From Archaeoglobus sp. (lineage in GTDB: Archaea; Halobacteriota; Archaeoglobi; Archaeoglobales; Archaeoglobaceae): 64,000 bases of DNA. The stretch covers positions 1-64,000 of the forward strand of contig NZ_JACDNT010000006.1 in NCBI RefSeq assembly GCF_017656475.1, given 5' to 3'. The notes under the pieces were generated by a model. The model was not told the origin of the DNA, made no database searches, and worked only from the letters and a program-made list of their open reading frames with translations. The number at the start of each line of letters is the position of its first letter. Position 1 is the first letter of the stretch. Below are positions 46,699 to 57,207 of this stretch, in pieces. The position numbers and the translations under genes are program-made.

Positions 46699-46917
46699 GT
46701 CAAAATCTGCCCCCAGAGTAACACCACCCTTCATCGCAGGCTCTGCCGCCTCAGAGTGGCTGACCTCTGGGGGCTGTCCCATGTCCGGGTTGCCCCACAA
46801 TCATCGTAAGGCTTTCGCCTCACTCCTGAGGGGACCTATCGACATGGTGTGTCCCCGAGCTCGCAGAGAAGCTTCATCGTCGGCACTGCCACCTCAGCCT
46901 CTTCCCCGATCGGAGAC
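46699..46917 (-). ncRNA. box H/ACA guide RNA with three K-turn hairpins
   Basis: On the minus strand three hairpins follow each other. Hairpin 1 is closed by CTCCGA/TCGGGG (46915-46910 / 46858-46853) with ACA at 46852-46850. Hairpin 2 is closed by CCATGTC/GACATGG (46847-46841 / 46785-46779) with ACA at 46777-46775. Hairpin 3 is closed by CCCCCAGAG/CTCTGGGGG (46773-46765 / 46718-46710). Each has a pocket and, above it, an L7Ae K-turn or K-loop: TGAGGTGGCAGTGCC..CGATGA, TGAGGCGAAAGCC..CGATGA, TGAGGCGGCAGAGCC..CGATGA. This is a pseudouridylation guide; a known Archaeoglobus RNA, Afu-46, also has three hairpins. A TATA-like AAATATTAA near 46945 fits. The rest of the 485-bp gap (46572-47057) holds only small terminator-like repeats. 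Confidence 0.85.
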
Positions 46918-47057
46918 ATTAGTATATAATCAGGAGAGTAATTAATATTTTCACTCGGCAGAAGACATCTGGTTTAAGAGGAATGGTTAAAAAAGATACT
47001 GCTTGACTTGAAATGTCAAATGTCTCTTGATTTCAATTAGACCATTCGTGTCGTGGA

Positions 47058-54234: not shown

Positions 54235-54368
54235 CGTTGGTGATTTAGAGGAGCTATTTAAAAGTGTTAGTTTTAATTTGTTGGGTTGAGAAATTCAAAA
54301 CTTGAGCGATACTTACTGCTCAACCACTTGACGAAATCTATTTTTAATCTCAAGTGCAAGAATTTAGC

Positions 54369-54587
54369 ATGCCTAAAATAATTGAGGCTATTTACGAGGA
54401 TGGTGTTTTCAAACCTTTGGAGAAGGTTGAGCTTAAGGAAGGGGAGAGAGTGAGGATAAGAATTGAAGACCGAAAAACGAAAAGAGAGAGTTTTCTTAGG
54501 AGATGGGAGCCAATAAAACTCGATGAAAGTCCATCTATAGAGAAGATAAAAGAGCTGAGGCTGAGAAAATATGGGAATATTCTTTGA
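54369..54587 (+). CDS. AF2212-type antitoxin
   Basis: The 72-aa protein starts [20 protein letters not shown], the signature of AF2212-like antitoxins (DUF104), which bind DNA and neutralise VapC toxins. The ATG at 54369 lies about 25 bp after CTATTTTTAATC and is leaderless. The toxin gene overlaps it by 17 bp. Confidence 0.92.
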
Positions 54588-54963
54588 TACCAATTTTATT
54601 GTGAATTTGATAGTTGAGACTGACTTTACGGGTAAAGCCAGGGCAATTGTGGAGAAATACATTGAAGAAGAATTTATAACCTCCGTGACAGTTGTGGAGG
54701 AAACTCTCTTTGTTTTGAAGAGACTAACTAAAGAAACTAATTCGAAAATTGTTGAAATGGTAAAAACAGTTATTGAAGGTCTGGATATCGTCGTTGTAGA
54801 TAAACTACCGCTATCAGAATTTCTTGATGTTTTTGGTAGTTACGACCTCTTGCCCAACGACGCCTTGATAGCTGCGACATGCAAATATCACGGGATAAAG
54901 AGGATTGCAACCTTCGATGAGGATTTCAAAAGGGTTGATTTTTTAGAGGTTGTGGAGGCTTAG
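54571..54963 (+). CDS. vapC: PIN-domain toxin VapC
   Basis: The 130-aa ribonuclease has the acidic PIN residues: [10 protein letters not shown] near the N-terminus, VVEETLF in the middle and [11 protein letters not shown] plus FDEDFKRV. It should cleave RNA, with the upstream antitoxin as its inhibitor. The pair overlaps by 17 bp. Confidence 0.93.
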
Positions 54964-55217: not shown

Positions 55218-55316
55218 ATGAAAAATTGCTCGTTTTGAGCCATCCTATTTTTCTTTGTACACGTTTAAGTTAGCACTCCGAAATGAGAAAAATTTTAACC
55301 TTAACGACCTAAATAA

Positions 55317-55379
55317 AATGGATGATGAATCTGGCAGAACCTGAGCTTTGCGATGATGACGGCTGTACTCTCTGACTAC
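55317..55379 (+). ncRNA. box C/D sRNA (2'-O-methylation guide)
   Basis: All four boxes are perfect: C ATGATGA (55322-55328), D' CTGA (55341-55344), C' ATGATGA (55353-55359), D CTGA (55372-55375). The guide segments are 12 nt each: ATCTGGCAGAAC before D' and CGGCTGTACTCT before D. By the D+5 rule both would methylate a U. A TATA-like AAATTTTAAC lies about 25 bp upstream of the expected 5' end. The 3' end overlaps the last bases of sufB on the other strand. The target RNA is not identified. Confidence 0.92.
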
Positions 55380-56473
55380 AGCAAATCCTTCTCTGCCATC
55401 TCTATCGTCCTTCTTATGGCCTCCTGAAGCGCTTCAGGCAGGCCTTTTATCTCTATCTCCATGAAGCCCCTGACTATCGCCGAAACCGCCTCATCCCTAC
55501 TCAGGCCTCTCGACATCAGGTAGAAAATTTCCTCCTCTGCTATCTTCCCGATTGCCGCCTCGTGGCTGAGCTCTACATTTGGATATCTCGCCTCAAGTTC
55601 TGGAATGGCGTCAATCAGTCCGTTTTCGGACAGCATCAACCCCTTGCACTCAAGGTGCCCCTTCACCTCAGGAGCATCACCGACGATGTGACCCCTCGCA
55701 ATAATCTTCCCTCCCTTGCTTATTGTCCTCGAAATTATCTCTGCCCTGCTGTTCTCACCCATTAAAACAGCCCTTGATCCGGAATCGATAACGCTGCCCT
55801 CAAGAGCAACAATTACACTGTTAAATATCGCTGTGGCGTCCTTCTCCACGTAGGCCGTTGGATAGGTCTGGACGAGCTTTACGGGGTTTAGGAGAATATA
55901 GTTGCTTATGAATGTCCCACCCTCCTCAACCTTTATGGCCGTCCTTGGTCTAACCTCTATCGTTGTGTCCCAGCTGTGTATCATTGTGAAAGAAAGCTTT
56001 GCATTCTTCTTGACGAAAAACTCCGATATGCCAATGTGCATTCCAGCAACGCCGGGATGAGAGGTGCAGCCAGATATTATGTTCAGCTCCGAACCCTCTT
56101 CAGCAATAACTATGTTGTGAACCCTCTGCTTTCCAACCTTTTTGAGGTAAAGGCAGGCTTCCACCGGTATCTCAACCTTTGCTCCAGGCAGAGAGCGGAT
56201 GAAGTATCCGTTAACGTCTTCAGAATCGGCCATCTTTGTATATTCATCCTGATCTTTCTTCAAAATCTTCCAGAAATAGTCCTTAACCCAGTCGTACTTT
56301 TCCATAGCCTGCTTTATGCTCATCACTTCCACTCCTTCAAAGAAGGACGCGAAGGTCTTTGCATCCTGGTCTTCCAGCAGAAATGTTCCTGACCTCTTTG
56401 AGCTGTCGAGTTCAATCCCAACTTCTTTCAGCCTTTCCTTATCTACTCCGAGTTCTCCATATTCCTCAGACAT
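55376..56473 (-). CDS. sufB: Fe-S cluster assembly scaffold SufB/SufD-family protein
   Basis: The 365-aa protein has the beta-helix of SufB/SufD and the C-terminal signature HEAAIGKIAEEEIFYLMSRG. It forms the archaeal SufBC scaffold with the next-listed ATPase. The ATG at 56473 is preferred; GAGGGGTG precedes it. It overlaps sufC by 31 bp. SufD, SufS and SufU are not adjacent, which is the minimal archaeal SufBC set. Confidence 0.9.
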   Translation of the reverse strand: MSEEYGELGVDKERLKEVGIELDSSKRSGTFLLEDQDAKTFASFFEGVEVMSIKQAMEKYDWVKDYFWKILKKDQDEYTKMADSEDVNGYFIRSLPGAKVEIPVEACLYLKKVGKQRVHNIVIAEEGSELNIISGCTSHPGVAGMHIGISEFFVKKNAKLSFTMIHSWDTTIEVRPRTAIKVEEGGTFISNYILLNPVKLVQTYPTAYVEKDATAIFNSVIVALEGSVIDSGSRAVLMGENSRAEIISRTISKGGKIIARGHIVGDAPEVKGHLECKGLMLSENGLIDAIPELEARYPNVELSHEAAIGKIAEEEIFYLMSRGLSRDEAVSAIVRGFMEIEIKGLPEALQEAIRRTIEMAEKDLL

Positions 56474-57207
56474 TTCGCCAAACACCCCTCATACCCGTGG
56501 TTTCTTATCTGATTCAAAATATCCCTCGGTTCACCAATACATGCGATCCTGCCGTTGTAGAGTATTGCAGCATAATCAGCATCCACATAATCGAGAATGT
56601 GCCCCTGATGCGTTATTATTACCCCTGACTTCGTCCTCTCTTCCTCACTCTTATCTCTCTCAAGAATTTTCCTTATTGCCTCACCAATGAGAGCAACGTT
56701 TTCTAAATCAACACCGCTGTCCGGCTCATCGAGCAAAACCAGATCAGGATTCATCAGCATGAGCTGCAAAAGCTCCGACCTCTTCACCTCTCCACCCGAA
56801 AAACCAACGTTTATCTCCCTGTAGAGGTGGTCAGTCATTTTCATGGCTTCAGCGAGCTCCATTATCTTGTCCTCCCCGTAACCACCTACTCTGGCACAGT
56901 ACCTCAGCACGTCTATCAGCTTTACACCGCTTATTTTAGGTGGGTTCTGAAAAGCGATACCCATTCCAAGTTTGACCCTATCGTTGGTTGGCAGATTCGT
57001 GACGTCTATCTTCTTGAACATTATCCGCCCACTCGTAACCTTGTACGACGGGTTTCCGATGAGGGCGTTGAGAAGTGTTGATTTACCTGAACCGTTTGGG
57101 CCGAAGAGGACGAAGGTCTCCCCTTCTTTTATGAAGAGATTAACATTCTTGAGTATCTTCCTTTCACCAACCTTCACTCCGAGGTTAACGACTCTGAGCA
57201 CACCCAT
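56443..57207 (-). CDS. sufC: Fe-S cluster assembly ATPase SufC
   Basis: The 254-aa ABC ATPase has GPNGSGKST, VGFSGGEVKRSELLQL and VLLDEPDSGVD. It drives the SufB scaffold. TATA-like ATTAAATAG lies about 25 bp upstream, so it is leaderless. First gene of sufCB. Confidence 0.94.
   Translation of the reverse strand: MGVLRVVNLGVKVGERKILKNVNLFIKEGETFVLFGPNGSGKSTLLNALIGNPSYKVTSGRIMFKKIDVTNLPTNDRVKLGMGIAFQNPPKISGVKLIDVLRYCARVGGYGEDKIMELAEAMKMTDHLYREINVGFSGGEVKRSELLQLMLMNPDLVLLDEPDSGVDLENVALIGEAIRKILERDKSEEERTKSGVIITHQGHILDYVDADYAAILYNGRIACIGEPRDILNQIRNHGYEGCLAKCLRNMENSE

Follow-up and report, generated by a model that had tools for sequence, protein, structure and literature searches.

A box C/D sRNA conserved in Archaeoglobi is predicted to guide methylation at the 16S rRNA 5′ end and helix 27 and is a possible archaeal U3 counterpart

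A complete box C/D sRNA with a 54-nt core was identified by sequence reading at positions 55322–55375 of the forward strand of the window, the whole 64-kb stretch of DNA analyzed here, which belongs to a 2.04-Mb Archaeoglobaceae genome. The sRNA lies tail to tail with a gene encoding a SufB/SmsB-like Fe-S assembly protein, the stop codon of which falls immediately past box D, in antisense. The putative promoter, the guides and the spacer were read from the sequence; box C was read in the same way and recurs in the orthologues, and boxes D′, C′ and D were assigned from sequence and orthologues together. The features of the locus are as follows:

55287–55298 (+): putative promoter some 27 nt 5′ of box C; BRE/TATA-like element GAAAAA TTTTAA
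55317–55379 (+): probable mature box C/D sRNA; ends approximate, taken from the original prediction
55322–55328 (+): box C, ATGATGA; RTGATGA in all 25 orthologues
55329–55340 (+): D′ guide ATCTGGCAGAAC, 12 nt, N+5 base A55336
55341–55344 (+): box D′, CTGA
55345–55352 (+): D′–C′ spacer GCTTTGCG
55353–55359 (+): box C′, ATGATGA
55360–55371 (+): D guide CGGCTGTACTCT, 12 nt, N+5 base A55367
55372–55375 (+): box D, CTGA
55376–56485 (−): SufB/SmsB-like Fe-S assembly gene, a convergent neighbor outside the sRNA, with its stop codon at 55376–55378

The four canonical boxes and the two 12-nt guides are exactly those of the original prediction. Because both guides carry an A at N+5, two uridines are predicted as targets, and the earlier claim of two methylated uridines stands as a prediction. 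The strict C/D motif occurs a single time on both strands of the window and was not found in 100 windows simulated with a first-order Markov model; a looser C/D pattern was found three times in 100 Markov windows. Rfam C/D families are guide-specific, and the gathering score is not needed for membership in the C/D class. Two of these families matched the sRNA from end to end below threshold, namely snoPyro_CD (RF00095; 37.2 bits, E value 1.9e-6, specific to C/D; gathering score 45) and sR2 (RF01139; 31.3 bits; gathering score 42). In both cases the box positions align with those of the sRNA over its full length, whereas the guides differ. Since 37.2 bits falls short of the gathering score of 45, the sRNA was not filed under snoPyro_CD. 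The GC...GC of the spacer could close a small K-loop-like loop, which the alignment shows to be lost in the three genomes of genus g12. Folded alone, the sRNA showed nothing beyond shuffled sequences, as expected of C/D RNAs without their proteins. The canonical boxes, their spacing, the Rfam C/D matches, the presence of the sRNA in 25 genomes of six genera and its independence from sufB uphold the original identification, and the locus belongs to the archaeal box C/D sRNA class.

An AT-rich TTTA/TTTTAA element is found at a similar distance upstream in each of the 22 orthologues compared, despite flanks that differ between genera. The retention of this element amid unrelated surroundings argues that the sRNA gene has its own promoter. 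Downstream, the SufB-like stop codon directly follows box D, so the overlap is confined to a short 3′ trailer of the sRNA. The sufB gene adjoins the sRNA only in the seven Archaeoglobus (genus g1) genomes, with its stop codon right after box D in all seven, and it was not found within 1.5 kb of the sRNA in the five other genera carrying the latter. The antisense overlap with the sufB stop codon claimed previously is present, but it is restricted to the trailer and incidental. As the sRNA is parted from sufB outside its home genus, the RNA, and not the sufB overlap, is the conserved unit.

Against the curated cut-offs, the SufB/SmsB-like protein falls far short (SufB, 163 of 346; SmsB, 183 of 650), and its closest named relatives are from Archaeoglobi MAGs and Archaeoglobus sp. 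UBA230. A SufC-like ATPase encoded beside it is just below its own cut-off, and the two genes together look like a minimal two-gene SUF-like system. Two small overlapping ORFs of 77 and 130 aa at 54354–54963 (+) have a VapBC-type look, with a short antitoxin-like protein first and a PIN-like protein second, and show no NCBIfam match. The window also contains an HgcG (Pab40) H/ACA-type RNA (Rfam RF00064) at 46701–46974 (−), scoring 95.3 bits, well above the gathering score.

A DNA search retrieved the locus from six further genomes of the genus, and two other genera match across the sRNA alone. Using a profile built from nine copies, the sRNA was detected in 25 of 59 Archaeoglobi genomes, representing six genera, and was not found in the remaining 34. 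The C, D′, C′ and D boxes are present in all 25 orthologues, with one change in C′ in genus g8. The orthologue at G004:C1:2111042-2111095 is in a genome which we take to be A. fulgidus VC-16; G008 and G017 are presumably Geoglobus acetivorans and Ferroglobus placidus, respectively. A second profile detected no full-length copies elsewhere in the phylum among 295 genomes. In genera without the sRNA, among them g4 and g5, a search for substitute RNAs bearing either guide found no intact C/D RNA. Since more than half of the Archaeoglobi genomes are without the sRNA and no substitute was found, an essential role there is unlikely.

Two relatives or neighbors of the sRNA were also observed in these genomes. 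In genus g8, a second box C/D sRNA is encoded on the opposite strand, convergent with the first, and the 3′ ends of the two abut (L178:1446-1555 and equivalent places in L180–L183); the guides of the second sRNA in L178 are ATCGGTTCTCGA and CAGCCTTAGGCT. Two g10 genomes (L186 and L187, near position 1500) carry a weak relative of the D′–C′ core with an incomplete box set (GGCAGAGACTGAGCGTTGCGATGAGGAGGGC in L186), possibly a decayed or re-targeted copy.

In E. coli 16S rRNA, positions 887–898 form the 5′ strand of helix 27, and both the central-pseudoknot 5′ strand and the helix-1 3′ strand are contained in positions 16–27. The D guide pairs with 16S rRNA segment GGAGUACGGCCG at 12 of 12 positions in this genome, including two G-U pairs, and this segment corresponds to the helix-27 strand. 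The methylated base, assigned by the N+5 rule (PMC4644070) and given in E. coli numbering, is predicted to be Um891. In all genomes tested, the D guide has its best 16S site in the helix-27 5′ strand, and none of 5000 column-permuted guides was as good across nine genomes and 4104 aligned 16S/23S windows. In genus g2 (G008 and G020), the target is the variant GAAGUACGGCCG, and ACTTT replaces ACTCT in the guide and pairs with it; GAAGU in the target is met by ACTTT in the guide, and the Watson-Crick pair is regained. On folding, the target segment makes up the 5′ arm of a hairpin with a GCAA cap. The D guide displays the rRNA complementarity and the Watson-Crick A:U pair at N+5 that are typical of the class, and these comparisons show the helix-27 5′ strand to be its predicted target.

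The D′ guide pairs best with AUCCUGCCAGAG at the 5′ end of 16S rRNA (E. coli 16–27), with predicted Um20. Within the 16S and 23S rRNAs of this genome, this site ranks first by duplex energy (−15.2 kcal/mol); the best 23S site reaches −12.1 kcal/mol. Over nine genomes, too, the 16S 5′ end has the best mean, where 36 of 5000 column permutations were equally good. The match has eight consecutive pairs in this genome and most Archaeoglobus, one pair fewer than the rule of nine pairs given by Dennis et al. (PMC4644070) demands. D′ guides of genus g2, for example ATTTGGCAGGAT, form nine or more consecutive pairs, with a maximum of 11 that includes one G-U, and that of genus g8 (CTCAGGCAGGAT) forms 11 of 12 pairs. 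The N+5 position makes an A:U pair in all of them, and the opposite base is always U20. The A. fulgidus match contains an internal A-C mismatch, and for the Ferroglobus D′ guide a 16S site near position 610 is equal or better. On the whole, this match is weaker than that of the D guide, and the 16S 5′ end is a well-supported but still putative target of the D′ guide.

The original prediction listed the perfect complements of the guides for a target search, and these are not the targets; among the best rRNA sites there is no perfect 12/12 Watson-Crick site. The predicted sites are GGAGTACGGCCG, with two G-U pairs, and ATCCTGCCAGAG, which is mismatched toward its ends, and neither would be retrieved by searching for exact matches. 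The original prediction had suggested rRNA and tRNA alike; both predicted sites are in 16S rRNA, and no convincing target was found among the 41 tRNAs of this genome, in which the D′ guide scored 7.7 at best, with mismatches, and the D guide 9.5. The two uridines left without targets at that stage can thus be named from sequence comparison, as predicted positions in 16S rRNA.

In eukaryotes, U3 pairs with the 18S rRNA 5′ end and with the 5′ arm of h27, nt 1111–1123 (PMC5354517; PMC9196750), and holds h2 and h27 open until its removal by Dhr1 (PMC9196750). The sRNA described here is predicted to pair with the same two segments, the 5′ end of the small-subunit rRNA and the 5′ strand of helix 27. 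It is likely that it represents an independently promoted dual 16S guide, which would methylate U891 through the D guide and U20 through the D′ guide. Presumably transcribed from its own promoter, the sRNA should associate with L7Ae, Nop5 and fibrillarin. The D guide would then direct 2′-O-methylation of U891 in the helix-27 5′ strand, and the D′ guide that of U20, which lies in the central-pseudoknot 5′ strand. The two target sites are about 870 nt apart in sequence but adjoin in the folded 30S core. A single particle pairing with both sites at once would keep the 5′ end next to the helix-27 strand, and such double pairing would block premature h1, h2 and h27 pairing. Release of both segments would then allow pseudoknot closure, the role ascribed to U3 in eukaryotes. 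This chaperone step, taken alone, is less likely than not. The best reading of the data is an ordinary dual methylation guide that may also bridge, and in this way chaperone, the two segments before the pseudoknot closes.

The sRNA could be a routine guide for U891 and U20 and nothing else, its likeness to U3 reflecting general hot spots, and we give this explanation roughly even chances. Helices 3, 18 and 27 have the highest density of predicted methylation sites in seven archaea and about half of archaeal sRNAs are double guides (PMC4644070), and the distribution of the sRNA is patchy. The hot spots are the main ground for caution about the coincidence. Against a purely routine role, the two guides of one RNA match both U3 sites at their distance of about 870 nt, and this pair of guides is kept in 25 of 25 orthologues across six genera. 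A more restricted role, with U891 the only real target and a D′ guide that is empty or directed elsewhere and resembles the 16S 5′ end by chance, appears improbable. It would fit the run of only eight pairs in most Archaeoglobus, the 0.7% of permuted D′ guides that do as well and the common occurrence of empty guides (PMC4644070), but it would leave unexplained why all 25 orthologues retain the GGCAGNA core, the A at N+5 and CTGA (with one change in A. fulgidus). Moreover, in g2, g3, g8 and g12 the complementary stretch is longer at the D′ end (AGGAU:AUCCU), an extension that is unexpected of a drifting guide.

Explanations outside rRNA modification are much weaker. An antisense regulator that overlaps the 3′ end of sufB and controls its mRNA is suggested by the convergent arrangement, in which the sufB stop codon directly follows box D in 7 of 7 g1 genomes. 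However, the overlap amounts to a few nucleotides at most, the guides are complementary to 16S rRNA, and the linkage is lost in the five other genera, which largely refutes this function; we regard it as very unlikely. The probability that the locus is a chance motif in an intergenic region that yields no transcript is smaller still and close to negligible, given that the strict motif was absent from all 100 simulated windows, that every box is intact in the orthologues of 25 genomes and that no other full-length matches were found among 295 genomes of the phylum. The dual 16S guide, with a possible bridging role, is the preferred reading.

U3 is a helper believed to be absent from archaea, and this sRNA may be its counterpart there; reviews state that a U3-like RNA and processing or folding snoRNPs are not known in archaea (PMC8339473; PMC3608112). 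Here, the two small-subunit rRNA segments gripped by U3 are both predicted partners of a single archaeal RNA. If this is true, it would provide a concrete and testable case of pseudoknot timing managed without U3, and would suggest that ordinary methylation guides could have been the source of the role of U3 or could have copied it. Should its function be methylation only, two sites in the ribosome core are still named for an archaeal family for which no rRNA methylation map was found in the literature searched.

The likeness to U3 lies in the target segments, and the two RNAs differ in build. U3 has a long 5′ domain with boxes A and A′, whereas the guides of the sRNA abut boxes D and D′; U3 has B/C and C′/D motifs, whereas the sRNA has two C/D-type motifs only. 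U3, which is essential for pre-rRNA processing, has a further pairing partner in the 5′ ETS and does not guide methylation. Rfam scans returned no U3 family match, and homology between the sRNA and U3 was rejected because the defining U3 domains were looked for and are absent. U3-like cis sequences in the 16S 5′ leader were reportedly proposed by Dennis et al. in 1997; in the leaders of eight genomes, no segment exceeded shuffled leaders in its pairing with h27 or the 16S 5′ end. A convergent counterpart of U3, which would hold the 16S 5′ end and the helix-27 strand, time the central pseudoknot and methylate U20 and U891, is a tentative possibility that we consider somewhat doubtful.

Dual guides to distant sites have been proposed as chaperones, with 15 entries tabulated, and no RNA in that table combines the 16S 5′ end with helix 27 (Dennis et al., PMC4644070). 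The N. equitans sRNAs sR15/sR17 (PMC4644070) resemble the sRNA in boxes, spacing, the N+5 rule and the possession of two distant 16S sites, and chaperoning was proposed for them on the same grounds as here. The sites of sR15/sR17 lie on the two strands of helices 30 and 28, whereas the Archaeoglobi sRNA is predicted to target the 16S 5′ end and helix 27.
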